43,206 nt of DNA, from NCBI GenBank assembly GCA_013202895.1, contig JABMPR010000073.1, positions 1 to 43,206 of the forward strand, written 5' to 3'. The stretch comes from a bacterium (GTDB lineage Bacteria; Fidelibacterota; UBA8477; JABMPR01). The notes beneath the pieces are model-generated. The model made no database searches and was not told the DNA's origin. It saw nothing but the letters and a program-made list of their open reading frames with translations. The position numbers were made by a program, and so were the translations under genes. Shown piece by piece: positions 9,064 through 40,614 of this stretch; the stretch's first letter is position 1, and every line of letters begins with the position of its first letter.

Positions 9064-10626
9064 TTATTTGAGCATTATCATTTTACCGGAAACAGCACCA
9101 GCAGGTGTTGATACGCGGTAAATATAGACACCTGAATCCACTGACTGATTTAAGTCATTGGTACCATTCCAGGTTACTTCGTTTGCACCGGTCTGACCCA
9201 TTCCGTTATAAACGGTGGCGACTTTCTGACCGAGCATGTTGTAGATATCCAGAGACACAGCTGAAGCAGTATTCAATGAGAATCTGATTGTTGTGCTTGG
9301 ATTGAAGGGATTTGGATAGTTGCCAATGATTGCGAATTCACTGGGAAGAGTGATTTGATCTTCATCGATTGTAACAGGATCAGCTCGACGTGTACCACCG
9401 GCTCCAAATGAGAATAGAGCTGTTTGGTATCCAAGATCATCTTCTATTGCTCCTGGGAAAGCATCGTTACTCCAGTCTGTCATTTCCTCATTTAATATGA
9501 GAAGATTTAGACCTTCATAAAAGACCCCTACTTCGCCAACATCAGCACGAGGAATGGCGAGTTCAAAGGCATTATCGTCACCATTAATAGCTACCTCATA
9601 ACCTGAACCGACATCTTCATAATCTTCGGCTGAGCCGCCTTCACCGATATAATGCTGAATTATATTACCTTCGTCAAGTGGATTTAGCACATAATCACAA
9701 CCAGTTGCCCACCAGTCCCATGTAAGACCAGTCGCAGCACTCACATCCGTATCAAGGAAGACCGAGATTACACCAGGTACATCGGGAATATCCCCAAAAA
9801 GACCATCCTCATTAATATCAAGACGGACATAAATATAATCGTCATCGTGAGCCATATAGACATCCTTGATATCCATGGATGGATAGGCGAAATCACCAGT
9901 TTCTTCTACCATATTTGGAGCGACATCCATTTGATGACCAGGAGCCCAGTCAGACATATCCCCATCAATTGTGATGGTATGACCAAAGTAGTATTCTACC
10001 GTCCATGATCCGAGATCATCCTCTATGCCTCCCGGGTAGGCATCATTGCTCCAATCGGTCATTTCCTCATTCAGGACAAGGATTCTAGTTGATGCATCAG
10101 CAGCATCTAGACCAAGATCAACTCTCGGAACAGCAAACTCGAAGCCGTTATCGTCACCATTAATAGCGACGCTATAGCCAGTTCCAACATCTTCATAATC
10201 TTCGGCTGAGCCGCCTTCACCGATATAGTGCTGAATTATATTACCTTCGTCAAGTGGATTTAGGATAAAATCACAACCAGTTGCCCACCAGTCCCAGGTA
10301 AGACCTGTCTCAGCACTCATATCCGTATCAAAAAAGAACTGGAATACACCTGGTACGTCAGGAATATCACTTAGAAGACCATCTTCATTGATATCAATCC
10401 GAACATAGACATAATCAGCGTCGTTGGTCATGTATACATCCTTGATATCCAAAGATGGGTAAGCGAAATCACCCGTTTCTTCAGTATATCCCGGTGCCAC
10501 ATCCAGCTGCATGGCAGGTGTCCAATCTGACATGTCACCATCGATGAGAATTGTCGCGGCAGATACGAATACTGCAAGAAGCAGAATACTCAGACCCACC
10601 AGCGTGTTACGTAGCGTTTTAAGCAT
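9064..10626 (-). CDS. Secreted protein with two tandem CBM9/DOMON-like domains and a C-terminal sorting domain
   Basis: This 520-aa protein has a cleavable signal peptide (LSILLLAVFVSAA, about 1-24) and two near-identical repeats of 192 residues (about 26-217 and 218-409), each starting ...IDGDMSDW and resembling the beta-sandwich DOMON/CBM9-like fold. The last 90 residues form a type IX sorting / FlgD-Ig-like domain (IGNYPNPFNPSTTIRFSL ... LGQKVATV ... SGVYIYRVS). It has no catalytic motif, so a surface carbohydrate-binding role is plausible. The start is supported by a strong AAGGAGG about 8 nt upstream. An 81-bp spacer separates it from the preceding gene. The repeats are very similar at DNA level, pointing to recent duplication or conversion. 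Confidence 0.8.
   Translation of the reverse strand: MLKTLRNTLVGLSILLLAVFVSAATILIDGDMSDWTPAMQLDVAPGYTEETGDFAYPSLDIKDVYMTNDADYVYVRIDINEDGLLSDIPDVPGVFQFFFDTDMSAETGLTWDWWATGCDFILNPLDEGNIIQHYIGEGGSAEDYEDVGTGYSVAINGDDNGFEFAVPRVDLGLDAADASTRILVLNEEMTDWSNDAYPGGIEDDLGSWTVEYYFGHTITIDGDMSDWAPGHQMDVAPNMVEETGDFAYPSMDIKDVYMAHDDDYIYVRLDINEDGLFGDIPDVPGVISVFLDTDVSAATGLTWDWWATGCDYVLNPLDEGNIIQHYIGEGGSAEDYEDVGSGYEVAINGDDNAFELAIPRADVGEVGVFYEGLNLLILNEEMTDWSNDAFPGAIEDDLGYQTALFSFGAGGTRRADPVTIDEDQITLPSEFAIIGNYPNPFNPSTTIRFSLNTASAVSLDIYNMLGQKVATVYNGMGQTGANEVTWNGTNDLNQSVDSGVYIYRVSTPAGAVSGKMIMLK
9400..10551 (-). repeat. Intragenic tandem duplication, period 576 bp
   Basis: The same DNA word starting ACATCTTCATAATCTTCGGC occurs at 9611 and 10187, exactly 576 bp (192 codons) apart. 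The match continues for about 75 bp with one or two differences. The two units encode the DOMON/CBM9-like domains. Similarity at silent positions implies recent duplication or ongoing gene conversion. Confidence 0.85.
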
Positions 10627-10707
10627 GATACAACCTCCTTAGGTTTGTTTTATTACTTAATTTATATTTAAACTCTCTACCCCTCTTGAAATAGAGACCG
10701 TCCTTAT

Positions 10708-12810
10708 TCATCGAATCACCACAAATTTCTCATATATATCAGGCAATTCAGATTGATCCAGATTCACACAATCCGTAACATAGGCGATATATACGCCACT
10801 CACAATACGCTGGTTGGATTCGCTGAGTTGGTCCCAGGCCTCATCCCCACTACCAGAAACATGCTCAATTGATTTTACCAAATCGCCTGTGGCATTATAA
10901 ATTTTGATAGTGCAGAAAGCAGGCAGATTCACAAATAAGATCTTATTTGGATCTCCCGTAAAGTTCAATTCACCTCCAGTTGAGATGAATGGATTTGGAA
11001 CAACCCTGACACTGTCGTTGTGAGTCGGTGCTGGTTTGAATGATACTGCCCCACTCACCGTTCTGTTCTGGTAATGAGAACTCTCAAGGGGGGTACCTGG
11101 AAATAATCCATCATTCTGGGAACCATCGTCCACTGTTGTTACGTAATATCGATAGTTTTCGCCCCTGACGGCCAGGGTATCTAGGAATTCTGTGACCGTG
11201 GAATCAACTTCCCCAATCAGCTCATAAACGATGCCCTTACCGAACTCATCCTCTTTAAAATTAATAAGTTGAGCACCTAATTTCCTGTAGATACGATAAC
11301 CGGCCAGATCGGGAATACCGGTCACTGGATCCGGCACGGACCGCATATCCTCCCACTCCAATTTTATAAACCCGCCACCACTGGTTACTTCTAAAGCTGG
11401 TGAAGGCAGAGGTGCTGGTACTGGATGACCACTATTCATTCGATCCCAGGCCCAGCGGGCACGGCTGAGGTATTCATATAAAGAATCCTTGCCCTGTGCC
11501 AGAAAATCGCGTTTGGCTATATCATCAAATGTTGCGCCGGGTTCGTCACGATACCAGCTTAACCATTCCTGACCTTTGGTAACGGTTTCTTCATAGTCCA
11601 CACCACCAACACCCACAGCATAGATGATATCCACATCTTCTCCCATTGAGAAATCGTAGGGTCCCAGACTCATATTCATATGATCACTCTTGGACCAGTG
11701 GCTGTTGCCCGGATCTTCCCAGTCCGGCGGATGCTGCCATTCACCTGTGGAGAAATAATTATAAGATGGCATCCCACTAAAAACATTGGCCCATACTTCA
11801 AATATATCAGACATGGCTAAGGTGTGGGGAAGATTGGGATCATCTGAACTATCAGCGGCTGAAACATCAGCGTGTAACAGCGTATAGCCTGGGAATTGAT
11901 ATGATAAAAACTGACCTTTTAAAACATGGGCAAAACTGGGGTCACCTGTATCATTAAATTCTTTCCCACCTGCTTCAAGCGTTTCCACATCAGTGTCATT
12001 TCCATCCCAGCCCCAGACTAACAACATATCATCGCGTGAATCGTCCAGACTTGAGGGGTAGAGTGGGTCAACAAGCTCCCAATCCATCCAGTCATCAAAT
12101 GCATCTCCACCCCAACGACTTCCATACATGATCTCTTTCTGACCAGCAAAACTGGGAATCATATGATAACCAATTACAAAATAGACATTGGTCAACTCCT
12201 GTTCAGGAATATCAGGATCCAGATCGAGGAAATCATAATCACCGGTAAATTTGAAGTTCAGATGATAGATGATGTAGTCGTCATGGAATTCATTGGCAAA
12301 TGAATAGGTCTTCAGGGTGATATAAAAACCTGGCTGGGCTTTCATCACCAGATCAATCTGAACATCGGAGAGCAATTCCGTAGAGAGTTCCCCATTAAAT
12401 TCATAACTGTCATTTGAATTATCAACTGTGATCTGTGGTGGTGCATAGCGCCGATATTCATAAATGCCCCAGGGTGGACCAATGCTTCCCAATTGACCAA
12501 TATCGATATATGAATTACTAAAACCTGCTACCAGGGTATCTGAGGTTTGCGTAGTATCGGTATACGCCCGGTAGGATTCGACGTTTATTAAAACCCTGGA
12601 GAACTGGCAATTCTCTGAGTCGTATACCCCTTGGGGCCAGGATAAAACGGGTTTGGTAGGACCTGAAGTATCCAACCATAAGGCCGTATCAATGCGATGT
12701 TTTAGCTTACCCAGATCATGAAAGCGACTGCCTTCATAGGTCTGAGCCTGAATCACTGCCACGAACAGAAATGAAACAAGTGCAATATTAAGTAGTTTGA
12801 GCAATTTCAT
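10708..12810 (-). CDS. Large secreted protein with FN3-like and type IX sorting-like C-terminal domains
   Basis: The start is placed at ATG 12810 (MKLLKLLNIALVSFLFVAVIQAQ, a signal peptide); an upstream ATG at 12894 would overlap the TonB receptor gene. The product is about 700 aa. Its N-terminal region contains FHDLGKLKHRIDTALWLDTSG and WPQGVYDSEN; the middle is rich in Asp/Trp/Tyr; an FN3-like segment covers about residues 480-600 (LEWEDMRSVPDPVTGIPDLAGYRIYRK). The C-terminus (VVPNPFISTGGELNF ... IKIYNATGDLVKSIEH ... SGVYIAYV) is a sorting/FlgD-like domain. It follows the TonB receptor by 17 bp, so it may serve as a surface partner of the transporter, as SusD-type proteins do, but it is not recognisably SusD. 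A full-length paralogue is at 28483-30579. Function unknown. Confidence 0.75.
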   Translation of the reverse strand: MKLLKLLNIALVSFLFVAVIQAQTYEGSRFHDLGKLKHRIDTALWLDTSGPTKPVLSWPQGVYDSENCQFSRVLINVESYRAYTDTTQTSDTLVAGFSNSYIDIGQLGSIGPPWGIYEYRRYAPPQITVDNSNDSYEFNGELSTELLSDVQIDLVMKAQPGFYITLKTYSFANEFHDDYIIYHLNFKFTGDYDFLDLDPDIPEQELTNVYFVIGYHMIPSFAGQKEIMYGSRWGGDAFDDWMDWELVDPLYPSSLDDSRDDMLLVWGWDGNDTDVETLEAGGKEFNDTGDPSFAHVLKGQFLSYQFPGYTLLHADVSAADSSDDPNLPHTLAMSDIFEVWANVFSGMPSYNYFSTGEWQHPPDWEDPGNSHWSKSDHMNMSLGPYDFSMGEDVDIIYAVGVGGVDYEETVTKGQEWLSWYRDEPGATFDDIAKRDFLAQGKDSLYEYLSRARWAWDRMNSGHPVPAPLPSPALEVTSGGGFIKLEWEDMRSVPDPVTGIPDLAGYRIYRKLGAQLINFKEDEFGKGIVYELIGEVDSTVTEFLDTLAVRGENYRYYVTTVDDGSQNDGLFPGTPLESSHYQNRTVSGAVSFKPAPTHNDSVRVVPNPFISTGGELNFTGDPNKILFVNLPAFCTIKIYNATGDLVKSIEHVSGSGDEAWDQLSESNQRIVSGVYIAYVTDCVNLDQSELPDIYEKFVVIR

Positions 12811-12827
12811 GTTTTTCCTGAGCCCTT

Positions 12828-15800
12828 TTAAAATGAGAACCGCACACCAATATAGATATCGCGTGGATTGAGGAATTGGGTCCATGAGTACCAACCCAGT
12901 TCCAGATATTCTTCGTCGTAAACACCATATTGATCATTCCCCTTCTGATCTCCTGTTTCAAAAGGAAGCTTCAAGGAGGATAGATATGAGGTGTATCGTT
13001 CAACATTGGTTAAGCGTTTCTCATTGAACAAGTTGGTAACTGTTGCATAGATAACCATATCTCGATCTCGAATCCGCGTGGATTTTTCAACTGAAAGATC
13101 AGTATTCTTCCAATCAACTGATTCAACCCACTTTCTGGCTGAAAGTGATGCTGATTCATCAAGGATGAATTTGCCGCCATCAGACCAACCAGTAATAAAA
13201 CTGGCTCTCCAGCCACCCATGGGATAAATCCCAGCGATTTTTTTGCCATAATTAAAGGGTGTCATAAAATTCAGGTTGGCAGAGACTGAAGGTACAGCAT
13301 AGGGTCTGATCTGCTCATACTGTAATCTTGCTTCATAATCCAGAAGCGGATCTTCATAGATCCCAATCTCCCCTGTCCTACCCCTGGTTTCTGTCGAGTA
13401 TTCAAAAGTCGTATAAAAAGTGAACCACTTACCCCGGTTCTTTTCAATCCTGAACTCAAGTCCTCGGATGTCACGATATTGATTGTTTGACCAGGTACTG
13501 ATTTGGATATCTCCAGTACCCAATTGGCCATTGCGAATTTCTAATTCAACAACCTCGTTAGAAACATCTTTGTAATAGGCTCCAAGATGAACCAGGTAAC
13601 GTTTTGCGATACTATGTTCATATCCAACTTCATATTGAATGGTTTTTGGGAAATCCAGATTCAAATTTGGTATCGTCTGACTTCCACCTGGCTTGACATT
13701 GAAATAATATCTGGGGTGTGCAACCTGGTAAAAATGACCATAATTAAAATATATTTTGGCATTTACTGATATAGGATGAGAAATTCCCAATCGGGGACTC
13801 AGGACAAATTTGGCAGTCTGCTCCTCCACTCGGAGTGAATCAAAGCCATTGCCTGTTGAATTAAAATAGCCTGAAGTGTAGGGGGAATTGAAGGGATCAT
13901 CCAGATCAAAGGGAGAGTTCCTGGGATCATAATAATCAGCACGAAGCCCAAAATTTGCAATCATACCTTCAAACTCCAGACGGTCCTGGAAAAAGGCGCT
14001 ACCCTTGATGGGATTTTCAGTGTAATAGATCCACAGGCTGGGATTTTCCTCATAGGTGAGAATCTCGCCACCGCTATTTTGTAATTCCCGTTCCTTGAAC
14101 TCAGTAAAACTGAAGTCAAATCCAGCTTTGATCTGATTGCGTTTGTTGATCTGGGAGACATAGGTACCATGGAATCGCAAACCCTTATAATTCGAGTGAT
14201 TATGTCCGCGACCCAGACCACCCAGGATTGATTGATTTGGTTGGTCCCATTGCTCGGCGCCTTCACCTAAATGAGCGCGAGGTCCCTCATCGTAACCGAC
14301 TCCAGCAATATAATGAATCAAAGTTGAATCCCGGGCTTCCAGAGGTTCCTGAAAGGTTGAGTCAATGGTAAATTCTAATCCAAGATCCAAATAGGTCGAG
14401 GGACTAAAGATATAAGACATCTGGAACCCACCAACATAGGTTTTATTCTGAATCGGATTAAAGGCACCTTCAGCCCACAGATAGGTCGGTGAATTCAGTA
14501 AATATGACATGGAATATACTGAACCACTACTCCCATTCAAGACTGCCGGTGAGGCACCATATACATCACCACCACCGACACCGTCTTCATAATTATAAAG
14601 ACCAAGAAGGCGTAGATTGATTTTATTGTTGACCCTGTAATTTAATTTCACTTGACTCACAGTATTGAAGTAAGCTTTACGACTGAGAGGCAGGTAATAC
14701 TGCGTGTTTTCAACACGTTGTGAAAGCATAAATCGCAGTCCTCGGAGTGGTGTAGGACCTGATAAGGTTAAATCAGCGACTACATCAGGTAGATCCCCAT
14801 ACTTAATTTCCCGGTGACGCCATTTCCAGATTTCTAAGGCTTCCTGTGGAGTATAGTCATTGTCCGGAATGTTGTCTTTTGCATTATTGAGGGCTACCTG
14901 ATTCCAGCCAACGAACTGAAATGGATATTCACCTGATTCCACATCTTCTTTGGAGACACCTTCAAAAGCTTTTTCACCAGCATAAACGCTCCAGAATGGT
15001 CCTTCAGGAGAGAAAGGACTGGGACCAAAATGTTTTCTGGCAGGCGGACTAAAGCGCACATCACCGTGTACTGCAATGCGTTCCTTGCCTTCTTTGGTAA
15101 TAATGTTTACCAAGCCTGAGCGCACCTGACCAAATTCAGCATTAAATCCACCGGAGAGAATCTCAATCTCTTCGATAGAAGAAACGTTAATACTGGACAT
15201 AGGCACCTGGGTTCGCTCGTTCATAAGAGAAACGCCATCCAGGATGATATTGGTTTCATCGATTCCACCACCTCGGATGCTAAAACCGGAACCATCCTCA
15301 CTTGATTGGGCAGAAACACCTAACTGGGTCGAGAGAATTTCATCAATGCCCTCAAGCGGTAGTGATTGTACATCTTCAGCCCGGATATAATATTTACTGG
15401 CCGAAACGTCCAGTTTGATAACTTCACGTTCAGCGACAACCACGACCTCTTCACCTTCAAGGCTGGATGTGATCATATCAAAATTTACAGTTGCAGTTCG
15501 GTTGACGAATACGAGGACTTGTTCCATGCGCTGATTGGCATATCCAATCATATTACAGGTAAGCGTATAGATCCCGGGCGATACGTTGATCAGATAGTAA
15601 TCACCTTCCATATCAGCGGCGGCACCAGATATTCTTTCGACGGGGTGAGGTATTCCGGCATCCCAACGTTCGACGATCATGACGTTCGCACCAGGCAGCG
15701 CTTCCCCTGTAACTACATCAATAACGCGTCCAGAGACTTTTCCGGCTCCCGCAGCAAAACTCAATGCGGGTGTCATGATTAGTAGTATTAAAGCAAAACT

Positions 15801-15833
15801 TATTTTTAAGCGAGTATTTGAATTAATCATCAT
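12828..15833 (-). CDS. TonB-dependent receptor with carboxypeptidase-regulatory-like N-terminal domain
   Basis: This 1001-aa outer-membrane transporter has a signal peptide (ISFALILLIMTPALSFA). A CarboxypepD_reg-like beta-sandwich follows (GKVSGRVIDVVTGEALPGANV, about 30-115), then the plug (GGGIDETNIILDGVSLMNE ... FGQVRSGLVNIITKEG, about 150-250) and a 22-strand-type barrel ending in the aromatic PRDIYIGVRFSF. This is SusC-like architecture, used for TonB-powered import of glycan fragments or large ligands. No SusD is adjacent; instead it is flanked by an IPT/TIG lipoprotein (5 bp upstream) and a large sorting-domain protein (17 bp downstream), both plausible substrate-capture partners. An AGGTGAT ribosome site precedes the ATG. 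Cognate substrate inferred from context only. Confidence 0.9.
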   Translation of the reverse strand: MMINSNTRLKISFALILLIMTPALSFAAGAGKVSGRVIDVVTGEALPGANVMIVERWDAGIPHPVERISGAAADMEGDYYLINVSPGIYTLTCNMIGYANQRMEQVLVFVNRTATVNFDMITSSLEGEEVVVVAEREVIKLDVSASKYYIRAEDVQSLPLEGIDEILSTQLGVSAQSSEDGSGFSIRGGGIDETNIILDGVSLMNERTQVPMSSINVSSIEEIEILSGGFNAEFGQVRSGLVNIITKEGKERIAVHGDVRFSPPARKHFGPSPFSPEGPFWSVYAGEKAFEGVSKEDVESGEYPFQFVGWNQVALNNAKDNIPDNDYTPQEALEIWKWRHREIKYGDLPDVVADLTLSGPTPLRGLRFMLSQRVENTQYYLPLSRKAYFNTVSQVKLNYRVNNKINLRLLGLYNYEDGVGGGDVYGASPAVLNGSSGSVYSMSYLLNSPTYLWAEGAFNPIQNKTYVGGFQMSYIFSPSTYLDLGLEFTIDSTFQEPLEARDSTLIHYIAGVGYDEGPRAHLGEGAEQWDQPNQSILGGLGRGHNHSNYKGLRFHGTYVSQINKRNQIKAGFDFSFTEFKERELQNSGGEILTYEENPSLWIYYTENPIKGSAFFQDRLEFEGMIANFGLRADYYDPRNSPFDLDDPFNSPYTSGYFNSTGNGFDSLRVEEQTAKFVLSPRLGISHPISVNAKIYFNYGHFYQVAHPRYYFNVKPGGSQTIPNLNLDFPKTIQYEVGYEHSIAKRYLVHLGAYYKDVSNEVVELEIRNGQLGTGDIQISTWSNNQYRDIRGLEFRIEKNRGKWFTFYTTFEYSTETRGRTGEIGIYEDPLLDYEARLQYEQIRPYAVPSVSANLNFMTPFNYGKKIAGIYPMGGWRASFITGWSDGGKFILDESASLSARKWVESVDWKNTDLSVEKSTRIRDRDMVIYATVTNLFNEKRLTNVERYTSYLSSLKLPFETGDQKGNDQYGVYDEEYLELGWYSWTQFLNPRDIYIGVRFSF

Positions 15834-15838
15834 ATCAC

Positions 15839-17185
15839 CTATTGTTGGTATCCGGTTGCGCCGACATAGACTCTCTGAATCATCCCTGCCTCGTCGACTG
15901 AAGTGACTGTGTGATCATCAGCGACATTGGAGTATACCAGCACCAGATTTATGCCATCCCAGGTCATAAAATTTGCTGTTGGTACAATGTCGCCTGGAAA
16001 AAACTCCACTAGTTCACCTGTATCCATGTTGTAGCGATAGAGTATATTAGCGCCCTCTGGTACAAAGTAAAGATTGCCATCAACATCAAATTCAAGCGTA
16101 TAGATGTTATCAAATTCATCCAAAACCACTTCGGTTTCACCTAGAGTTTCGCCAAGAATCTGATTGCGACTGATAGCCGCTCCTTCTTCCTGATAGGCCT
16201 GGGTTACATAGAGATATCCACCCATTATTTTGCAGCTTGTGGGTCGTGAATACTCCATAACCTTCAACGATAAAGTGGTGTCCGACTCGTGTGTACCCAC
16301 AAAAGATCTTCCAACTATGGGTTCATAGTAAATTCCGCCGGAGATATCTGTGATGGTGGTATCCAAGTAATCTTCAATTTCCTCAATTTCCATTTCATAA
16401 TATCCCATGCTGGAGTAGAACATGTTTCCTGAGCTCCAGTCAAAGGCAATGCCTGAGGGTGTAACTACTTCCTTGATTTTCTTTTTAAAGCTGGTAGAAC
16501 CATCGAAGGGTATTGCCGATATCCAACCCTGCTCTTTGTTTCTCCTGAGATTTGCACCCCATATGGTGTCCGTATTGACATCATAGATCAAGTTGCCCAG
16601 GATGGTGGATGTTTTCACGACACTAATCTCACCTGTAGTTGATATACTATGGAGTCCCTTGCTCCAACCGCCATCAGCTTGATTGACGATAAAATAAATT
16701 GTGCTATCTGGAGCTGTCGTAATCCCAGCGGGCCAATAAACCGTATCGGTCAAAGCTTCAAGGGCCTGAAAAAAGGTAAAACTCAGGCTATCGTTAATCA
16801 TTGAATTACCCGATGTATCGGAAGTATCTACTACTAAACCTTCCCAATAGCCCCAGAATTCACTCCCGGGGACTGAAACCTTTGGAAGGACCGTCTTATC
16901 ATTAACCATGGGTAATTGGACGATGAGTTCAGTTGATCTTGCCTCCTTCACAACACCCTGATTTGCTCCAAAGAGGACCATGTTGTCATCTAGAGTTGTG
17001 GAAAAGTTTTCACCCGTGATGGTCACATCCGAACCTGCGAACCCGGAATCAGGAACAACACTAAATATCAGAGGGGCTGGTCCTCCAGTAGGGTTAGGAT
17101 CCGTCCAGGACTTGCTCTCCTCGGTGCAGGCGATTATCCCAACCAGAATAAGCACGGAAAAAGCTGAATTGATTAATAATTTCAT
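15839..17185 (-). CDS. IPT/TIG-domain lipoprotein with beta-propeller-like C-terminal part
   Basis: The start is set at ATG 17185, which has a strong GGAGGAG site 6 nt upstream and begins a lipoprotein signal (SVLILVGIIAC). The frame remains open upstream to 17368, but that would overlap the PorV-like gene. The 448-aa product has an IPT/TIG immunoglobulin-like domain (PLIFSVVPDSGFAGSDVTI, about 38-115). It continues with repeated strands like an NHL/SMP-30-type propeller (YWPAGITTAPDSTIYFI, PSGIAFDWSSGNMFYS, NIYTLEFDVDGNLYFVPEG). Such lipoproteins directly upstream of SusC-like receptors commonly act as surface glycan-binding proteins, and I infer that role. It lies 5 bp before the TonB receptor gene and 13 bp after the PorV-like gene. 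Confidence 0.75.
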   Translation of the reverse strand: MKLLINSAFSVLILVGIIACTEESKSWTDPNPTGGPAPLIFSVVPDSGFAGSDVTITGENFSTTLDDNMVLFGANQGVVKEARSTELIVQLPMVNDKTVLPKVSVPGSEFWGYWEGLVVDTSDTSGNSMINDSLSFTFFQALEALTDTVYWPAGITTAPDSTIYFIVNQADGGWSKGLHSISTTGEISVVKTSTILGNLIYDVNTDTIWGANLRRNKEQGWISAIPFDGSTSFKKKIKEVVTPSGIAFDWSSGNMFYSSMGYYEMEIEEIEDYLDTTITDISGGIYYEPIVGRSFVGTHESDTTLSLKVMEYSRPTSCKIMGGYLYVTQAYQEEGAAISRNQILGETLGETEVVLDEFDNIYTLEFDVDGNLYFVPEGANILYRYNMDTGELVEFFPGDIVPTANFMTWDGINLVLVYSNVADDHTVTSVDEAGMIQRVYVGATGYQQ

Positions 17186-17198
17186 TTTATGCTCCTCC

Positions 17199-18203: not shown

Positions 18204-18236
18204 ATTTACACCTCTATACTTTAGATACTTCATAGC

Positions 18237-19907: not shown

Positions 19908-19919
19908 GTCGATTCCCAC

Positions 19920-21938
19920 TTAAATTTTCTTTTCCAACCAAACCACAGCACCGCGAGTTATGGGTGGCAGTTTGGAGCTTAAACCAAATTGGTTGTACTC
20001 TGATTCCAACATGATAATCTCACCTAAATATGGTAAAAATAATATATTATCCTCAGGTCCTGCATCCATAAAGAGGATTTCAACATCTTTTTGTGGAATC
20101 TGATTCGCATTTTTTTCGGCAATTATTCCAGTGTAATTCGCTATAAACACGTGAGGTTTACCATCCACTTGAGCAATCTGTGTGGCTATGCCAGGGCCAG
20201 CCTTCAAACTTACCAAAGGCTGAGCAGAAGCGTCCTTCGTCACTGTCTCCTGGAAGATCTTAAGTGCCTGTGTACATGCATTTCCAACCCAATTGTCCGT
20301 ATAAGCTGAAGCATTAAATTCTTTATGAGCCAAATTGTAATATTCCAATCCCGGGCTACCAATATGTTTGATACCCTGAGACAAATCCGCCAGCACATTC
20401 GTCTCCAACTTCTGGCGTTGGGTGCTGTACAAGCCTGTTTCGCCAGTGGTTAATATTTTGCAGCCCCTCGAACTCAAACCTTTCAGCAGATTGATCTCAT
20501 CCTGATTCAATATGCGTGATTCAGGCATGAGAAGAGTGGTACCTTTAAAATCAGCAAGAGTGCGCGGTGTGACAATTTCAAATTCCATGTGCGATTGTAG
20601 GAGCAAATACATTAATCCTTTATAGGCAGGGACAAAATCATTGGTAAAATAGTCTCTTGATTTGGGAGAAAAATAAACTCCTACCGGATTAATAGGTAGG
20701 CGGGGACTGAAAAAGGTATTCTCATGCTCTGAGATCCAGTTATAGACTCTAGCTCTGGTTTCATAATCATTTGATCCAGACATGACATGTCCCCGTGCAT
20801 CATAGGGGTTAGTTCCAGACATGATTTGAGACATAAACATATTTTCCATGGCATCTGATGCACTGATGTTTTCTTCCTCATCCCATGAATAGCTCAGCAT
20901 CCATGATGCTTTTCCTTCTGCAAAGGCTCTGAAGGACAGCATCCCTGTCATATAGGCAAACCAATCAATGGGTTCACGGCCTGCCGCAGTGTATCCACCT
21001 TCCGAATATTCATGGGCGATAGCATCTGAAACTGCATAAAGACGATAGACATCTGCACCCACAACGACGGCATCCTCACCAATTCCGGGGTAGATCTCGG
21101 GAATGAGTAAACAGTTTGGGTTCACCGATTGAATATTCATCTGAGCTTCGGCTACAAATTCTGTAATCGCATCCAGTCTGAAATCTAACCATTTCAGGAA
21201 ATTAGGATCGTCATAATTGCCAAGCTCGAGATCAGTAAATGCATCAAGACCAGTGCGGTTTTTGAATTCAGCCACAGTATATTTATCAAAACTGGCCCAG
21301 GTATCCCACCAGCCATCAAAATGGGTCATCCAATATGGGATATCAAGCCAGAGACCGTCAATTCCAGTGGCAGCTATAGCCCGCACATGGGCCATCCATT
21401 GTTCCCGCCATTCAGGGGCAAAAGGAGAGATCCAAACGTCCTCATCCCCCTTACTAATCCAAAAGGCATCTTTTTCACTAAAAATAGCCAGGTTTCCATT
21501 ACGATCAGCCTGGACCCAGTCCGGATGATCTTTATAAAAGGAATGTTCTGATGAATCTGCTTCTGCGGTAATGCATTCCATCCCAGCGATATAAACAAAG
21601 GCATAATTCCCAGCAGCATGGGCCTGGGCTGCCATTTCTCTTATGGCTTCAAGTTTCTCGGCTGGATCGAGCCAGCTGTCATATCGACCCGGGATATCAT
21701 TGTCTGTCTCAATACCAAAAACATGGGTTTCCTGAACCTTTTTAATTATCCCGGGAATGTTAGCCATACTCAGGCCATGTCCGGCAATCCGTGTTCGATG
21801 TGACCAATGGTCGGGGTCTGTGACTGCAATCGTGGCGCTTTTTGTATTCTCAGGAACACTCTCTGAGCTACATCTGATGTGTGTCATAGTAAGCAGCACG
21901 CAGACTAGAAGGAGGCAGGTGATCTGTCTTGCAGTCAC
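19920..21938 (-). CDS. Lipoprotein with GH42/GHL-like TIM barrel and class I GATase-like domain
   Basis: This 672-aa protein has a lipoprotein signal (LLTMTHIRC, Cys23). The N-terminal half is a TIM barrel: RIAGHGLSMANIPGIIKK, YAFVYIAGMECITAE, WREQWMAHVRAIAATGIDGLWLDIPYW (Asp at the end of a strand), and CLLIPEIYPGIGEDA (Glu candidate). The second half (GLMYLLLQSHMEFEIVTP, LLMPESRILNQDEINLLKG, SRGCKILTTGETG) resembles the trimerisation/GATase-like domain of GH42 beta-galactosidases and of hypothetical glycosidase family GHL6. A beta-sandwich end follows. It is likely a periplasmic or surface exo-glycosidase on the Gal/GalNAc glycan. It lies 10 bp after the DMT permease gene. I cannot assign a CAZy family with certainty. 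Confidence 0.65.
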   Translation of the reverse strand: MTARQITCLLLVCVLLTMTHIRCSSESVPENTKSATIAVTDPDHWSHRTRIAGHGLSMANIPGIIKKVQETHVFGIETDNDIPGRYDSWLDPAEKLEAIREMAAQAHAAGNYAFVYIAGMECITAEADSSEHSFYKDHPDWVQADRNGNLAIFSEKDAFWISKGDEDVWISPFAPEWREQWMAHVRAIAATGIDGLWLDIPYWMTHFDGWWDTWASFDKYTVAEFKNRTGLDAFTDLELGNYDDPNFLKWLDFRLDAITEFVAEAQMNIQSVNPNCLLIPEIYPGIGEDAVVVGADVYRLYAVSDAIAHEYSEGGYTAAGREPIDWFAYMTGMLSFRAFAEGKASWMLSYSWDEEENISASDAMENMFMSQIMSGTNPYDARGHVMSGSNDYETRARVYNWISEHENTFFSPRLPINPVGVYFSPKSRDYFTNDFVPAYKGLMYLLLQSHMEFEIVTPRTLADFKGTTLLMPESRILNQDEINLLKGLSSRGCKILTTGETGLYSTQRQKLETNVLADLSQGIKHIGSPGLEYYNLAHKEFNASAYTDNWVGNACTQALKIFQETVTKDASAQPLVSLKAGPGIATQIAQVDGKPHVFIANYTGIIAEKNANQIPQKDVEILFMDAGPEDNILFLPYLGEIIMLESEYNQFGLSSKLPPITRGAVVWLEKKI

Positions 21939-21948
21939 GACCCAGACC

Positions 21949-22815
21949 CTAATCGTTTGCCATGAGGTATGCTGCCAGAACGGCTAGAACCATACCCGTG
22001 ATAATGACAGGTTGTGGTATAACTGAATAGATAATCAAGCTCAGAATTATTGTAATTACAGGCGCTCCGGCATTCGTCAAGGGACTAACAATAATAGCTT
22101 TACCATAGCGAAAAGCATATACAATACACAGTGCCCCAACCGCATTAAGCACTTGTATCAATGCCGCTAAATACGGTCCTTTGAATCCCCAGTTAATGGG
22201 TTCACTAAAATCTGTCATATAAAGGGCAATAGGAGCTAACAGAAGCCCGGTGACCATCATATAGAAAAAGATGCTTTCGGCTTTCATGGTCTCATTGGCG
22301 AATTTCATGACATAAGCTTGAAATCCCCAGGCTGCAAAAACCAGGAGTGAAAAGATGACCCAGAGCGAACCCGCGGTGGCTGCATTTTCAGGTGGTGAAT
22401 ATGAAAGCAGGATAATGGCAATTAAGGCTGCAACAATCCCAATCCAACCGCGCTTGGAAGCCCTTTCCTTCAGCAAAATGAAAGATAAAATGATGGTCAC
22501 TACAGGCGACATTGATATGATGGGAAATATCATATAGGCAGGTCCCATTCGAAGTGTCTGAAAAAGTATGAGTTGACCGCCAGCACCGGTAAATCCAATA
22601 ATGGCGCCCAGCATAATAGACTTTTTGTCAAATTCAAGTTTCCAATCGATAATCTTGAGGGCAATCAGAGCAGGTGGGATCATGGTCAGAGCCCAAACCA
22701 CATAGCCCAATGTTGCCGGAAAACCCGCCTTTTCGGGAATCTCGATCAGAGCTCCCCAGATACCCCAAAAACTGGTAGTCACTATAGCGTAAACAAGCCA
22801 AAGTCTAGATTTCAT
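21949..22815 (-). CDS. EamA/DMT-family inner-membrane permease
   Basis: This 288-aa protein has about ten hydrophobic segments in two homologous EamA halves (LWLVYAIVTTSFWGIWGAL at the start; IFSLLVFAAWGFQAYVMKF at the start of the second half; P-x-x-x-I-I-L-S-x-I near each end). Drug/metabolite transporter members export or import small metabolites, and several act on sugars. Its ATG overlaps the stop of the KbaZ-family gene (ATGA), so translation is coupled to a catabolic enzyme, suggesting that it carries a substrate or product of this pathway. It might import the monosaccharide (GalNAc, galactosamine or galactose) or export an intermediate; the sequence does not say which. Confidence 0.82.
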   Translation of the reverse strand: MKSRLWLVYAIVTTSFWGIWGALIEIPEKAGFPATLGYVVWALTMIPPALIALKIIDWKLEFDKKSIMLGAIIGFTGAGGQLILFQTLRMGPAYMIFPIISMSPVVTIILSFILLKERASKRGWIGIVAALIAIILLSYSPPENAATAGSLWVIFSLLVFAAWGFQAYVMKFANETMKAESIFFYMMVTGLLLAPIALYMTDFSEPINWGFKGPYLAALIQVLNAVGALCIVYAFRYGKAIIVSPLTNAGAPVITIILSLIIYSVIPQPVIITGMVLAVLAAYLMAND

Positions 22816-24131
22816 GAATTTACTCCTGGTATCGGTTTATTAATTCCACATGCGCTGGCATAAGTCTCTAGAACCTGTCTGACTTTTCCATGCATAAGTG
22901 TTATTGGATCATTTTTGATTCGGCCCTCCCGAATTTTTTCATACTCAAAAGGCAAGTACTGACTGATAAGCGAGAGCGGGATAGTTTGTGTCGAAAGATT
23001 TTGAATGAGCTTATCCAAAGACTTTTGAAGGGCATCCGTTGGCCAATAGTAGCGGATACGGTCACTCAAACTGAAGAAAAACTCATACAGATGTTGCGAT
23101 GCGTCAGAGCTATAATGGCTATCCCAGTATTTCGGATCGCTGTTCATGGTGCTGATGATGCTGGATCGGATCTCAGAGCTTGTCCACCCGGGATTCAGGG
23201 TCAGCAGCTCTGATTCAATATGAGCCAGAGCAAGAATAGCCTCACGCAGAGCGTAGGTAAGTTGAGGTCCAACCTTGAGAATTGCGAAATGATCTTCAAC
23301 CAGTTTGCTCAATCCGCTGGCCAACTGATAATCCGTGGAATGGGCTTCAAATAGCAAGGAGTCATACCCCTCAATCAGCCGCACAAGAGCTACCGCTTCT
23401 GATGCTTTATATTCCGCCACAAATTGGGATCCAAATTCCAGACCGGGTTGTGCAACCACTGCAATGACACGATCCCAGGCTGCCCTCAAACCATGTTGAA
23501 TAAATAGATTTTTATGAATAGCTATCGTTTCAGCAACATCACTTGCTACACTGGGAACAAGTTCTTCAAATCCTTCATGGGAACCACCTGGCACTGGAAC
23601 CTCTGTTCCAATCACATATACGGGTGGGCTTAAATTTTCTCCAGCTATAGATTTTTCGGCAACTGCACACAGGTCAGCCGCCCGCTCAGCCACTAGCTTT
23701 GAGTCAAGTGCTCCTATAGGGTCATCAGAACAGCGCATGCTGGTATCGAGATGAATCTTACTAAATCCTGCCTTCACATATTCAGCAACAAGGACCCGTG
23801 CATTTGCCATGGCCTTTTCGGCTGGTAAATCCTGCCAGGCGTTGGGTCCTAAGTGATCACCTCCAAAAATAATATTGTCCTGTGCAAAATTCATGTCGGA
23901 GGCTATTGTCTTTACAAACTGAATAAAATCAGAGGGTAGCATCCCAGTATACCCACCAAACTGATCGACCTGATTTGAGGTCGCCTCAATCAAAAGAAGA
24001 CTATCATCAACTATTGCCTGTTCAAGCGCAGCTCTGATGACATGGGGATTGGCAGAACAGACGGCATAGATGCCCAAAGCCTGCCCGGCTTTATGTTGGC
24101 GTGTTAATTCTGAAAGTGAGCTATAATGCAT
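22812..24131 (-). CDS. KbaZ/GatZ-family protein (tagatose-bisphosphate aldolase subunit or tagatose-6-phosphate 4-epimerase)
   Basis: The start is ATG 24131 (MHYSSLSELTRQHKAGQALG), which matches family N-termini; the frame extends upstream to 24251 inside the PfkB gene. The 439-aa product contains GIYAVCSANPHVIRAAL, GGDHLGPNAW (90-99), SKIHLDTSMRC, IGTEVPVPGG and HSTDYQ, all KbaZ/GatZ/AgaZ landmarks with likely metal-binding His/Asp. In E. coli this family is the non-catalytic partner of the class II aldolase KbaY/GatY. A related Agrobacterium protein was shown to be a tagatose-6-phosphate 4-epimerase. No KbaY/GatY gene exists in the window, so the epimerase role (tagatose-6-P to fructose-6-P) deserves equal weight. 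It follows the PfkB gene by 4 bp and overlaps the permease start. Confidence 0.85.
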   Translation of the reverse strand: MHYSSLSELTRQHKAGQALGIYAVCSANPHVIRAALEQAIVDDSLLLIEATSNQVDQFGGYTGMLPSDFIQFVKTIASDMNFAQDNIIFGGDHLGPNAWQDLPAEKAMANARVLVAEYVKAGFSKIHLDTSMRCSDDPIGALDSKLVAERAADLCAVAEKSIAGENLSPPVYVIGTEVPVPGGSHEGFEELVPSVASDVAETIAIHKNLFIQHGLRAAWDRVIAVVAQPGLEFGSQFVAEYKASEAVALVRLIEGYDSLLFEAHSTDYQLASGLSKLVEDHFAILKVGPQLTYALREAILALAHIESELLTLNPGWTSSEIRSSIISTMNSDPKYWDSHYSSDASQHLYEFFFSLSDRIRYYWPTDALQKSLDKLIQNLSTQTIPLSLISQYLPFEYEKIREGRIKNDPITLMHGKVRQVLETYASACGINKPIPGVNS

Positions 24132-24135
24132 ATAC

Positions 24136-25086
24136 TTAAATAGAAATAAAGATCTCTTTCCCGTTCTCTTTGATAAAGGATAACATTTCCGGCATATCCG
24201 GTGAAGCCGTAGCCCCACCCGCTCTGGTGGTAGCAATGGCTCCGCAGGCACTTCCAGCTATAAGACAATTTTTCAGTTCATCACCCTGCAGCCAGCTTGA
24301 TAGAAATCCACAATTAAAACTATCTCCGGCTCCTGTAGTATCAATGGGGTCCACCTGATATACTTTTGTCTTGAGCGTCTCGCCCTTTGAGTGGGCTAAA
24401 ACTCCCTCACTGCCACATGTAATGACGGTTGTGCTGGCATATTGTGAAAGAAACTCGAGTGCTGCTTCTACATTATCTGTATGGGCAATACACATTGCCT
24501 CAGATTCATTTGGTAGGAAAACATCAATATATGGTAAAACTTCAAGGATATCATCTTCCCATTTTTCATCAGGATCCCAGCCCGGATCAAACGATGTGGT
24601 CATCCCCAGGGATTTAGCCCTCTTGAAAAGTTCCGCACAAGCAGGACGCATACCTGGCTGTAAATAGTATGAGGAAAAGTGCAGGTGCTTCCCGCGCTTT
24701 ACATAATCAAAATCAACATCGGCGAGATTAAAAGTCTCCATGGCTCCCATGTAGGTCATCATTGCATAATCGTCGGGATAAGAAAGAGCAACAGTAATAC
24801 CCGTCTGCTCATCATCCTTGACCTGAACTCCTGTACAATCAACTCCCCGTGCTGCCAGTGTATCGGTCACAATTTTTCCCAGATAGTCATTTCCCAGTTT
24901 GCCAATAAAGCCCACCTTCAGACCCAGATGGGCAATATTTGTTGCGAAGATTGCCGAAGCACTTCCCATGGTCAGGAGCATGCCTCTTGCCAGTTTTTCT
25001 TTCCCCATTTCTGGAAAACCCTGAGGATCATGAAGAATCAGATCCGCATTTAACTCTCCGACGACTACAATATCAAAATCACTCAA
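24136..25086 (-). CDS. PfkB/ribokinase-family sugar kinase (candidate tagatose-6-phosphate or hexosamine kinase)
   Basis: This 316-aa protein starts at a TTG with an AAAGGA site 6-7 nt upstream. PfkB features are IVVVGELNADLIL (7-19), GSASAIFATNIAHLGLKVGFIGKLGND (41-67), PNESEA (192-197) and the signature DTTGAGDSFN (249-258) with Asp255 as catalytic base. Between AgaS and KbaZ genes the classical assignment is tagatose-6-phosphate kinase. The sequence, however, looks more ribokinase-like than LacC/1-phosphofructokinase-like. It could instead phosphorylate the incoming hexosamine at C6, which a PTS-free pathway would need. It is part of a run with 27 bp and 4 bp spacers. Confidence 0.82.
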   Translation of the reverse strand: MSDFDIVVVGELNADLILHDPQGFPEMGKEKLARGMLLTMGSASAIFATNIAHLGLKVGFIGKLGNDYLGKIVTDTLAARGVDCTGVQVKDDEQTGITVALSYPDDYAMMTYMGAMETFNLADVDFDYVKRGKHLHFSSYYLQPGMRPACAELFKRAKSLGMTTSFDPGWDPDEKWEDDILEVLPYIDVFLPNESEAMCIAHTDNVEAALEFLSQYASTTVITCGSEGVLAHSKGETLKTKVYQVDPIDTTGAGDSFNCGFLSSWLQGDELKNCLIAGSACGAIATTRAGGATASPDMPEMLSFIKENGKEIFISI

Positions 25087-25113
25087 TTACGTTCCTTTCC
25101 AATCCCGGACATT

Positions 25114-26160
25114 TTAGAGTGTCACTACCTGGGTTAGGTTTCGTGGTTCATCAGGGTCCATGCCCTTCTTGAGAGCATTGTGATAGGCTAGTTGTTGTAG
25201 AATTGGGAGTGCCAGTATCAATCGAGCATTTTCTTCTACACCAGAATTGAGTTCCACAACATAATCTGCATTAGCACTTACAGCAGTATTTGCCGTCTCA
25301 CAGATAGCAATTGATTTGGCACCAAGTGCGTTCATTTCGCCAATGAGTTTGATTTCAGCATCACCTGTATGATCAGATAATAGATAAATGATAAGCGTAT
25401 CTTTGTCCACCAGAGACATGGGTCCATGGCGAAATTCAAGGCTGTGATAGGCCTCAGAATGGGCTACCGACATCTCTTTTACTTTCAGCATGCCTTCACT
25501 GGCCAATCCAAAATGAGGACCATGCCCCAGGTATATAAATTTTGTAAAACTATTGGATGATATAATCTCTTCAGCCAGTCCATTGTTTTTTCCCATAAGG
25601 GCTGTACCAATATCTGGCAGGCTTGAAAGCTGGTCGAAGAAGGATTGGTTCCCGGAAAATCGTGATGCCAGAATCTGAATTTGCAGCAGCATGCTGGTGA
25701 ATGAACGTGTCATCACAACGCTTTTTTCATCCGCATTTCCGATGAGATAGCGATATTCTCCCATCCTGGACAATTCGCTTTCCGCCCGGCATGTCAGCGA
25801 TATTCTATTGGTTTTGTACTTATTCAAAGTATTGCCAGCCAGTAAAATTTCAGAAGTGGTACCAGAGCGGGATATGAGAACAGCTGAATCGACGCCTCTC
25901 GATTTTGCATATAGATCGGCGTAAAACATTATATCTGCTGATGGGATAGCCTGGGCAGGAAGCCCGGTGATTGCTTTCCACATGGCTGCTGCACTTAATG
26001 AGAGATAATAGGATGTTCCTGATCCAATAAATCCGAAACTATGATCAGAAGCATTTTTGATGAGATCTGCAGTGGTTCCGTTTAAATTTTCGTTATGCTT
26101 AATCAATGACTGCCAGATTCTGGGCTGAGACATAATCTCTTCAACTGTGTGCTTCGTCAT
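25114..26160 (-). CDS. agaS: AgaS-like SIS-domain galactosamine-6-phosphate deaminase/isomerase
   Basis: This 348-aa cytoplasmic protein has two SIS domains. The first carries FGFIGSGTSYYLSLSAA and AVLISRSGTTSEILLA; the second carries IYLGHGPHFGLASEGMLKVKEM and HSEAYHSLEFRHGPMSLVD. The C-terminal LPILQQLAYHNALKKGMDPDEP...LTQVV is the characteristic AgaS ending and separates it from GlmS, which has an extra glutaminase domain. AgaS converts galactosamine-6-phosphate to tagatose-6-phosphate plus ammonia. It lies 28 bp downstream of the AgaR-like regulator and 27 bp upstream of the PfkB gene. It is the strongest single indicator that the locus degrades galactosamine or GalNAc. Confidence 0.88.
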   Translation of the reverse strand: MTKHTVEEIMSQPRIWQSLIKHNENLNGTTADLIKNASDHSFGFIGSGTSYYLSLSAAAMWKAITGLPAQAIPSADIMFYADLYAKSRGVDSAVLISRSGTTSEILLAGNTLNKYKTNRISLTCRAESELSRMGEYRYLIGNADEKSVVMTRSFTSMLLQIQILASRFSGNQSFFDQLSSLPDIGTALMGKNNGLAEEIISSNSFTKFIYLGHGPHFGLASEGMLKVKEMSVAHSEAYHSLEFRHGPMSLVDKDTLIIYLLSDHTGDAEIKLIGEMNALGAKSIAICETANTAVSANADYVVELNSGVEENARLILALPILQQLAYHNALKKGMDPDEPRNLTQVVTL

Positions 26161-26188
26161 AATTCCTCTCTTCTCTCTCTAGACGATG

Positions 26189-26962
26189 TCAGACCAGAAT
26201 GACACCAATATTATGCTCTTCCAGATATTTCAAATACAGCGGAGGGATGTTTGAATCTGTGATGACACGATCTATTCGATCCAGACCAATAATCGATACC
26301 AGGCTTTTTCGTCCAAACTTGCTTGAATCAGTCAAAACAATGACTTCTTTGGCTGCATCGACCATAATGCTATTTAGATGGGCCTCGTATGGATTTGGTG
26401 TAGTTAAGCCCGTTTCCATATCAAAGCCGTCTACCCCCAGAAACACCTTGTCAAAGTGATATTCTTTCAGCATACGTTCCGCCTGAATGCCAACGAGGCT
26501 AAATGATTTCTCTCGAAGGACACCACCTGTAAGCATTACTGTGCTGTTGGTTTTTCCAGCTAAATCCGTGGCAATGTTTACAGCATTGGTCATGATGGTT
26601 AAATTTTCCTTGCCATCCAAAAACCTGACAACTTCCGATGTAGTCGTCCCAGAATCGAGAATGATGGAGTCTCCATCATGAATCAAAGCAGCTGCCGCAG
26701 CACCAATTCTACGCTTTTCATCGGCATGCAGTTTTCGCTTTTGAAGAATGGAAACGTCTGTTCCCACGGGCTCGCGGATCTGAGCTCCGCCATATGAGCG
26801 TAAGATGATACCCTGCTCTTCAAGATGCCGCAGATCAGCTCTAATAGTCACCTCGGATACGCCGAATCGTTCACTTAGAATATCTACTTTTACTCGTCCA
26901 GCGTGACTAATGAGATCCTTGATCTGATTTCGTCTCTCTACTGTTGGTTTTAAAGATCCCAT
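26189..26962 (-). CDS. DeoR-family repressor, AgaR-like
   Basis: This 257-aa protein has an N-terminal HTH_DeoR (RRNQIKDLISHAGRVKV ... FGVSEVTIRADLRHLEEQG, about 10-57) and a C-terminal DeoRC sugar-phosphate sensor (DGDSIILDSGTTTSEVVRFL, LTIMTNAVNIA, LTGGVLREKSFSLVG, KVFLGVDGFD, DSSKFGR). AgaR proteins repress agaS-type operons and are released by amino-sugar phosphates. It sits just upstream of agaS, so the pathway intermediate is its likely ligand. It is a paralogue of the 35044-35814 regulator. A 40-bp gap to the amidohydrolase gene implies that it is transcribed from the 28140-28482 promoter region and may autoregulate. Confidence 0.88.
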   Translation of the reverse strand: MGSLKPTVERRNQIKDLISHAGRVKVDILSERFGVSEVTIRADLRHLEEQGIILRSYGGAQIREPVGTDVSILQKRKLHADEKRRIGAAAAALIHDGDSIILDSGTTTSEVVRFLDGKENLTIMTNAVNIATDLAGKTNSTVMLTGGVLREKSFSLVGIQAERMLKEYHFDKVFLGVDGFDMETGLTTPNPYEAHLNSIMVDAAKEVIVLTDSSKFGRKSLVSIIGLDRIDRVITDSNIPPLYLKYLEEHNIGVILV

Positions 26963-27002
26963 ATAATCTCAGTCCGACTCCCTTATTCAGAGCTTTTGAG
27001 AA

Positions 27003-28139
27003 CTAATCCTTTTTTCCGAATAGGCGTTCGGCATTTTCATAATAGATTTTTTTCAGCACTTCATCCGGTAGACCCATGCCATTTAGCGCCCAGTGATACC
27101 CGTATTGATCATGACCATAGAAGTGCTCATCCTCTGTCTCCAGCTGACGAATGGTCATACGATACATATCCACATCATGTCCCATGTCAGTGCCATAGAA
27201 AATTCGATCCTGGTATTCTTTATAAAAGTTTGCTGCAGCTCGCGGAATGGGACCGACCTCAGCGTAGCGGGCGCCATTATCCACATACAAGTTGGGATAG
27301 CTAGACAAAAGCTCAGCCAATTGCGATAGATCATAACTGAGATTGGCATAATGACAGGCGATAAACGTGGTTTCGGGGTGTCTCTTGACCGTATTTTCGA
27401 GAATATCAATCATACCCTGATGACCCACGATATCAGGTTTATTATCCAGGCGCCATGAAAATGCATTCATGAGACCGTCATTTGTCGCATCCATTGGCAG
27501 ATACATCCAGATCGGTTCAGCAACATGGATGTTAATGGGCATGTCCAGTTCAGCACATTTTTGAAGTAGACCATCAAGCCGGGGATCATCCAGATGAATT
27601 CTGGGGACTGGTGTTTTGCTTCTGACCAGACCTGAGCCCTTATCACTCAATTCGCCCACACCTCTTGCACCGACCGCGTAACAACGCTCCAGTTCAGCAA
27701 CGGCAGCTGGACCAAAACCTGGTTTGTCATAACCGGTGTAGTCAAAACCGCACCATATTTCGAAACGATCTGCGTAAGGTGCATATGCATTGTAAATAGA
27801 ATCGAAAACTGCTCCAGTTGCTTTAGTGAGAATGATGGTCTTTTTAATTCCTACAGCATCCATGTTTTTCAATGCCTGCTCAATACCCCCTTCAGCAAGG
27901 GCGTAGGTATGCGAATGCATATCGATGACAGGATATTTAGCACTCATGATTTCAGTGGTGGGGGTCTTGTACACAGAAATTGGTCGATAGTCTTCTAAAA
28001 GTATTTGCTGAACTCCGGAAGGGGGTGGTGACTCTGTCATAGGCGCTGGAGTATGAGAAATAGAGCATGTTGCCAGACTCATTATGAATACCAGTGCAGA
28101 CGTGATGTACAGGATACGGTTCATGTTCAATAATCTCAT
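27003..28139 (-). CDS. Exported amidohydrolase_2-family lipoprotein
   Basis: This 378-aa protein has a lipoprotein signal (LVFIMSLATC). The mature part is a TIM-barrel amidohydrolase (PF04909-like): VIDMHSHTYA (metal-binding HxH), PINIHVAEP, IVGHQGM, TFIACHYANL and RIFYGTDMGHDVDMY (C-terminal metal Asp). This superfamily includes decarboxylases and lactonases; it is not the NagA/AgaA deacetylase type. The location outside the cytoplasm suggests hydrolysis of a lactone, ester or amide in the glycan or its aglycone. It is the first gene of the long minus-strand run. ATG 28124 is an alternative start; neither has a strong ribosome site. Confidence 0.75.
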   Translation of the reverse strand: MRLLNMNRILYITSALVFIMSLATCSISHTPAPMTESPPPSGVQQILLEDYRPISVYKTPTTEIMSAKYPVIDMHSHTYALAEGGIEQALKNMDAVGIKKTIILTKATGAVFDSIYNAYAPYADRFEIWCGFDYTGYDKPGFGPAAVAELERCYAVGARGVGELSDKGSGLVRSKTPVPRIHLDDPRLDGLLQKCAELDMPINIHVAEPIWMYLPMDATNDGLMNAFSWRLDNKPDIVGHQGMIDILENTVKRHPETTFIACHYANLSYDLSQLAELLSSYPNLYVDNGARYAEVGPIPRAAANFYKEYQDRIFYGTDMGHDVDMYRMTIRQLETEDEHFYGHDQYGYHWALNGMGLPDEVLKKIYYENAERLFGKKD

Positions 28140-33182: not shown

Positions 33183-33185
33183 GAT

Positions 33186-40598: not shown

Positions 40599-40614
40599 AA
40601 AGTGAGCGAACAAT

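Follow-up and report, generated by a model that had tools for sequence, protein, structure and literature searches.

The window analysed here, a contig of 43,206 bp (JABMPR010000073.1) from an uncultured member of the Fidelibacterota, carries cytoplasmic sugar-catabolic genes of the Aga type together with genes for outer-membrane and secreted proteins, raising the question of whether these genes form one system and which sugar it would serve. A preliminary description had proposed a PTS-free Aga-type set joined to TonB receptor, PorV, surface lipoprotein and secreted-domain genes, and all of these were found, encoded by the minus strand from 28139 down to 9064; no PTS genes were detected in the window. 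As argued below, this single gene run probably serves to capture a galactosamine-rich sugar polymer on the cell's exterior, to degrade it and to catabolise the amino sugar in the cytoplasm.

Unit 1 consisted of 13 minus-strand genes running from 28139 to 9064, identified by Pfam and NCBIfam profiles. With corrected starts for GatZ (24131), the TIG lipoprotein (17185) and the gene at 10708 (12810), the gaps ranged from -4 to 81 bp (in order, 40, 28, 27, ~4, -4, 10, 0, 3, 13, 5, 17, and 81 bp). The first gene (27003–28139) encodes an Amidohydrolase_2 lipoprotein (PF04909, E = 6e-23; SLATC lipobox), and is followed by a DeoR-family repressor, AgaR (26189–26962; NF040755, 315 bits, cut-off 260); a double-SIS protein similar to GlmD and AgaS, predicted to be an aminosugar-phosphate deaminase/isomerase (25114–26160; NCBIfam, below cut-off); a ribokinase-type PfkB sugar kinase, the proposed galactosamine 6-kinase (24136–25086; PF00294, E = 1e-53); GatZ/KbaZ, the proposed tagatose-6-phosphate 4-epimerase (22812–24131; PF08013, 575 bits); and an EamA/DMT permease, the proposed galactosamine importer (21949–22815; PF00892). 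Further along the run were a GHL10/GHL6-like lipoprotein, putatively a glycosidase (19920–21938; Pfam matches under cut-off), a DUF4874+DUF4832 protein with a T9SS tail, putatively a glycoside hydrolase (18237–19919; Pfam, TIGR04183), a PorV/PorQ-family outer-membrane protein (17199–18233; NF033709, 195 bits, cut-off 90), a TIG-domain surface lipoprotein (15839–17185; PF01833), a TonB-dependent receptor with carboxypeptidase-D-like domains (12828–15833; Plug, E = 4e-13), a large secreted protein with a T9SS-type tail (10708–12810; weak PorZ-tail match), and a two-repeat secreted protein with a T9SS tail (9064–10626; TIGR04183, 42 bits, cut-off 23; DOMON/CBM9-like by eye). The T9SS protein SprA was present in the source genome. 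Since a perfect 10-bp GC-rich hairpin (9027–9049, minus strand), the probable end of the unit, sits just beyond the stop at 9064, this position is a sensible boundary; this hairpin apart, terminator and promoter scans of the region gave counts near chance.

Downstream of the hairpin, a second co-directional minus-strand run (unit 2, 8958–730) also belongs to the galactosamine locus, so that the interval 28139–9064 given in the preliminary description holds as a first unit and leaves out the downstream glycosidases and kinase. Unit 2 encodes a galactokinase-like GHMP kinase, presumably a sugar 1-kinase (7882–8958; PF00288/PF08544, galactokinase models under cut-off), a GH36 lipoprotein related to the galactosaminidase FpGalNase (5725–7839; PDB 8x1b, 9awt and 9ayu, 217–221 bits), two GH109-family proteins with Tat signals (4336–5712; PF21252, 220 bits; PDB 6t2b, 368 bits, and 2ixa, 297 bits; and 2816–4198; PF21252, 207 bits), a protein of uncertain start without family match (2113–2835), kept beside GH109 in genomes G236, G241, and G023, and a DUF4874+DUF4832 lipoprotein, putatively a hydrolase with a TIM barrel plus beta-domain (730–2109; Pfam, AF2). 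On the other side of unit 1 were a nucleotidyltransferase and an SSF symporter (32313–34832, minus strand), a type found in one run with the GHMP kinase and the core in locus L072, and a second AgaR (35044–35814, minus strand; NF040755, 305 bits, cut-off 260), which faces the gene for a NagX-like transmembrane aminosugar N-acetyltransferase (35963–37093, plus strand; NF046061, 136 bits, under the cut-off of 480). Next to the latter, a secreted protein (37108–38649, plus strand) recurred in EamA loci, at 58–63% identity beside EamA in Flavobacteriia and at 67% in G033; solved relatives were searched for this protein and the GHL10-like protein, and none of note was found.

In the explanation that we consider fairly probable, the window has a PUL-like set of genes directed at a glycan that contains galactosamine, with a route from galactosamine to fructose-6-phosphate. 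The genes present, their order and conservation, the excess of operator-like sites and the lack of NagA, NagB and KbaY over cut-off are observations, from which we infer every reaction, enzyme location and the substrate. The secreted and lipid-anchored enzymes (the DUF4832, GHL10-like, GH36, and GH109 proteins) would cut the glycan, fragments of which would be taken in by the TonB receptor and its surface lipoprotein. The EamA permease would carry galactosamine freed outside into the cytoplasm, where the PfkB kinase would phosphorylate it. The SIS protein would then deaminate and isomerise the product to tagatose-6-phosphate, which a lone GatZ, acting as epimerase, would convert to fructose-6-phosphate. 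AgaR would repress the run through CTTTC boxes, and co-released GalNAc or galactose may pass via the GHMP 1-kinase.

A scan with the EamA permease gave 201 related places, the best 80 of which were in Bacteroidota, Balneolota, Calditrichota, KSB1, Ignavibacteriota, Acidobacteria, Kordiimonadaceae, and others. In a set of EamA loci (n = 83, four being counted twice via two handles), AgaS or a short SIS protein, AgaR, and PfkB were present in more than half, GatZ in 31, KbaY in 25, and SusC in 22; SusC/SusD were present in Bacteroidota sister loci. Related loci were also found in cultured Gracilimonas, Chryseolinea, Adhaeribacter, and Maribacter. The proposal of a PUL-like arrangement in an uncultured FCB lineage was thus right as to type and lineage and too narrow in restricting it to uncultured organisms.

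The SIS protein matched GlmD at 170 bits and the AgaS family at 116 bits (AgaS cut-off 529), both below cut-off. In a tree, it fell in a clade apart from that of E. coli AgaS (split support 100/100), and its identification as an AgaS orthologue was rejected. Because of this separation, the term "agaS-type" applied to the gene earlier fits only in part. True AgaS fills the same slot in sister loci, in the same context. As for the kinase, relatives of PfkB occurred beside a LacC-type kinase and KbaY in loci L089, L093, L101, and L124, and in L118 and L119 a BadF-type kinase took its place beside AgaS and GatZ. Both the LacC pairing and the BadF swap are consistent with PfkB acting first, on the aminosugar. 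GatZ scored 562 bits with the agaZ_gatZ model, slightly under the cut-off of 568.8, and its solved relatives were PDB 2fiq and 3txv. Alignment with 2fiq showed that the zinc ligands H88, E171, and H257, the base D87, K279, and C20 are kept, matching the residues named in a study that reports C4-epimerase activity for E. coli GatZ and KbaZ (PMC11907403).

The main alternative is the classical Aga order, in which PfkB would phosphorylate tagatose-6-phosphate and GatZ would belong, as a subunit, to a tagatose-bisphosphate aldolase with the catalytic partner encoded elsewhere, galactosamine-6-phosphate coming from an unlinked kinase. GatZ was paired with KbaY in seven EamA loci. A KbaY-type aldolase was not found in the source genome, which is 88% complete and might hold the partner in its missing part; however, the one class II aldolase found lies in an fba-pgk-tpiA run, and this glycolytic context, in a sole candidate, led to its rejection as KbaY. 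The short-SIS EamA loci were likewise without KbaY, and PfkB has a dedicated LacC beside it in the four loci named above. Nine EamA loci hold AgaS, PfkB, and KbaY without LacC, and in these PfkB could be the kinase for tagatose-6-phosphate, so that the classical order is regarded as unlikely rather than set aside.

Less probable still, with perhaps a slight chance, is that the SIS and PfkB proteins handle an Amadori-type or other aminosugar in the manner of FrlB and FrlD, with GatZ taking the ketose product. The SIS protein, closest to GlmD at a sub-cut-off score and apart from AgaS in the tree, would allow this, as would a fructoselysine-kinase match of PfkB at 92 bits, but the FrlB match of the SIS protein was only 20 bits, true AgaS occupies its slot in sister loci, and the gene run contains the FpGalNase-like GH36 and GH109 proteins. 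The regulatory elements also argue against it, with two AgaR genes over cut-off and sites containing CTTTC, which we take to be the core of the E. coli AgaR site. Proposed AgaR boxes were located upstream of unit 1 (CTTTCATTGT, 28206–28215, and CTTTCATTAT, 28383–28392, both on the minus strand), and two copies of CTTTCATTAT, 31 bp apart, lay between the second AgaR gene and the NagX-like gene (35848–35888, plus strand). The pattern CTTTCATTRT occurred 4 times in 43 kb compared with 0.4 expected, and all four sites lay in promoter regions belonging to one or other of the two AgaR genes or runs. In a set of 41 AgaR genes, CTTTC was counted 65 times in the upstream sequences against 19.4 expected from dinucleotide shuffles; elsewhere a weaker excess was observed (128 versus 92).

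The linkage of the catabolic core to the capture genes was examined in 245 genomes of the phylum. GatZ was found in 6 of the 245 and in 0 of the 18 congeners listed, and EamA, 69–91% identical across families of the phylum, was directly 3′ of GatZ in every phylum locus. The order AgaR-SIS-PfkB-GatZ-EamA was identical in G023, G033, G186, and G187; in G185 the core was present with the AgaR slot unmatched. In the same four genomes, the TonB receptor, PorV, and large T9SS-type protein shared the locus of the core, as they did in named Calditrichota and KSB1 contigs, and the large protein of the 10708–12810 type followed TonB in G033, G186, L057–L061, L064, and L065. The G023 and G033 loci also hold Amidohydro_2, GH36, GHL10-like (orthologues at 49–52%), and DUF4832 proteins. 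DUF4832 was present in 10 of the 245 genomes, and 5 of these belong to the 6 that carry GatZ (p = 2e-7, the genomes not being independent). Since the core order recurs in G023, G033, G186, and G187, the linkage is not due to chance, and a chance neighbourhood of core and capture genes was ruled out, as the arrangement is seen again in other families and in other phyla.

Congeners G236, G240, and G241 had the outer-membrane module without the core, indicating that the module can serve another route. In G236 and G241 the module and unit 2 were at roughly 60–83% identity, the DUF4832 protein of 18237–19919 was 74–76% identical in congeners, and in G241 and G240 a NagC-like ROK regulator replaced the stretch from Amidohydro_2 to the GHL10-like gene. 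With congeners holding module and unit 2 without the cassette, it looks as if either the cassette was added, in this lineage, to capture genes already in place, or the congeners sampled have lost it. That the window has two unrelated units, a glycan module of the outer membrane next to which a galactosamine cassette happened to insert, is suggested by these congeners, but is very improbable given the same combination in G023, G033, G186, G187 and Calditrichota/KSB1, the zero gap at the join (19920/19919), and the aminosugar-type regulator of the congeners themselves.

The three best solved relatives of the GH36 protein were all FpGalNase by sequence, and the equivalents of K461, D463, C513, D532, D346/D347, W317, and W387 were kept, with Y464 replaced by G; in eleven relatives the D463, C513, and D532 equivalents were invariant and Y464 was not kept. 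FpGalNase acts on galactosamine following deacetylation (PMC11762096), and the hint in the preliminary description at a galactosamine rather than GalNAc intermediate gains support from this relationship. The GH109 proteins matched solved GH109 enzymes. An AF2 model of the DUF4832 protein at 730–2109 (pLDDT 85) showed a TIM barrel plus a beta domain, with E163 and E276 invariant; the folds were of glycoside hydrolase type, nearest to GH30/GH5 enzymes and beta-amylase, with no specific match. This layout is common to clans that cut mostly beta-linkages, and for this reason Pel is only one substrate option. The DUF4832 protein SIR_1591 of Streptococcus intermedius disrupts Pel aggregates (PMC12345266), Pel being an alpha-1,4 polymer of GalN/GalNAc (PMC9135694), and a DUF4832 domain with a predicted TIM barrel is also present in the window protein. 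The TonB receptor scored 51 bits against the SusC cut-off of 368 and no SusD was found in the window, so the SusC/SusD pair of a PUL was absent; an outer-membrane receptor, surface lipoprotein, CAZymes, and regulator were present in one run, as in a PUL.

The absence of a deacetylase noted earlier was borne out: AgaA and NagA were absent from the locus, and a search for nagA/agaA elsewhere in the source genome (G000, 88% complete) gave no NagA or other such deacetylase over cut-off; NagB also had no match over cut-off there. NagA over cut-off was absent in G023 (97% complete), G033 (92%), and G187 too, and in 0 of the AgaS/SIS-bearing EamA loci searched was it found; the core-bearing G185 and G186 do have NagA. 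No PDB-detectable relative of FpGalNAcDeAc was found among the window proteins searched. The Amidohydro_2 lipoprotein is, speculatively, a candidate extracytoplasmic deacetylase. Amidohydro_2 adjoins GH36 in loci L018, L070, L075, L079, L086, and L137, and PF04909-like genes numbered 24 in EamA loci against 1.2 expected, an approximately 20-fold excess (P nominal, the loci being related). Its fold was like that of ACMSD-type amidohydrolases, with no deacetylase among the matches. As a known deacetylase it was rejected, having no PDB sequence match and ACMSD-type enzymes as its nearest in fold, and its role is left as speculation on the same grounds. A stronger form of the proposed route is put forward only tentatively, as a possibility well short of even: the secreted Amidohydro_2 would deacetylate a Pel- or galactosaminogalactan-like polymer, GH36 would free galactosamine from it, and EamA, PfkB, SIS, and GatZ would lead to fructose-6-phosphate, a galactosamine-only route, undescribed and FCB-wide.

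The view that coupling of an Aga-type set to outer-membrane capture is without precedent does not stand. The Aga system of Shewanella includes a TonB receptor and relies on a permease in place of a PTS (PMC2996990; PMC12118421), and in PUL BT4240-50 of Bacteroides thetaiotaomicron a GalNAc 1-kinase is joined to SusC/D and GH109 (PMC11992087); these precedents lower the novelty of the locus. Like that of Shewanella, the present locus is PTS-free and combines a permease, a kinase, a SIS-slot enzyme (AgaS there), and a TonB-dependent receptor, but it is without a deacetylase, EamA and PfkB replace AgaP and AgaK, the SIS protein is not AgaS, and glycosidases and T9SS-type proteins are in the run. 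AgaR, a KbaZ-type protein, and a SIS deaminase are shared with the E. coli aga/gam operon (L136), whereas PTS genes, KbaY, and AgaA are missing from the window. BT4240-50 resembles unit 2 in having outer-membrane capture, GH109, and a GalNAc kinase in one locus; its kinase differs in being of the APH family and acting at O1, and no AgaS/tagatose-6-phosphate route appears in the account consulted (PMC11992087). The window GH36 is related to FpGalNase of the Flavonifractor plautii FpGalNAcDeAc/FpGalNase pair, with most catalytic residues kept (PMC11762096); it differs from that system in Y464 being G and in the missing FpGalNAcDeAc relative among the window proteins searched.

In a survey of 397 gut genomes, the GalNAc catabolic pathway was found only in Actinobacteria, Firmicutes, and Proteobacteria, although Bacteroides had the largest number of GalNAc-releasing enzymes (PMC5583593). 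Many Bacteroidota and members of related phyla have sister operons of the present locus, and such an Aga-type pathway was not found described there. The EamA/PfkB/SIS/lone-GatZ combination and its FCB-wide spread seem undescribed in the literature searched, which covered few subscription papers. These loci offer Bacteroidota and their relatives, cultured species included, a concrete and testable 6-phosphate route in which the EamA permease and the kinase are marked, and, if the glycan is Pel-like, would be a dedicated means of feeding on biofilm matrix. GatZ is reported to work without GatY as a tagatose-6-phosphate 4-epimerase in Agrobacterium, Sinorhizobium, and E. coli (PMC11907403 and references therein); the present locus likewise has no GatY, and here GatZ is apparently fed by an aminosugar deaminase.

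A second, partial copy of the locus (L021, G000:C133:1-3602) was found within the window's own assembly. Compared with the window locus, its EamA, DUF4832 and GatZ products matched at 91, 79 and 73%, respectively, and its GHL10-like gene was shortened; this copy is either a paralogue or a contig from a related strain. In G187, another genome of the phylum, an additional EamA copy (62%) adjoins a DUF4832 gene at L149 8876-11274, apart from the core locus of that genome.

An Ignavibacteriales locus (L072 1583-10861) displayed the order SSF-GHMP-NTP-ROK-SIS-PfkB-GatZ-EamA in a single run, uniting genes that are separate in the window and hinting at a parallel 1-phosphate route. On a Kordiimonadaceae contig, a gene for a DgaE-like ammonia-lyase relative (L118 3039-4229, minus strand) adjoins EamA-GatZ-AgaS-BadF.

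In the window, the large secreted protein at 10708-12810 has a divergent paralogue, encoded at 28483-30579 (+), and the shared promoter region of the latter gene contains two proposed AgaR boxes. The 513-aa product of 37108-38649 (+), with a weak Tat signal, gave no family or PDB match; its relatives (58–63%) adjoin EamA in Flavobacteriia. At 38829-42994, genes for an AMP-binding enzyme, a 152-aa ORF, an alpha/beta hydrolase and a KAS III-like protein are consecutive, a row which we take to resemble hydrocarbon/beta-lactone clusters of the OleC-B-A type.
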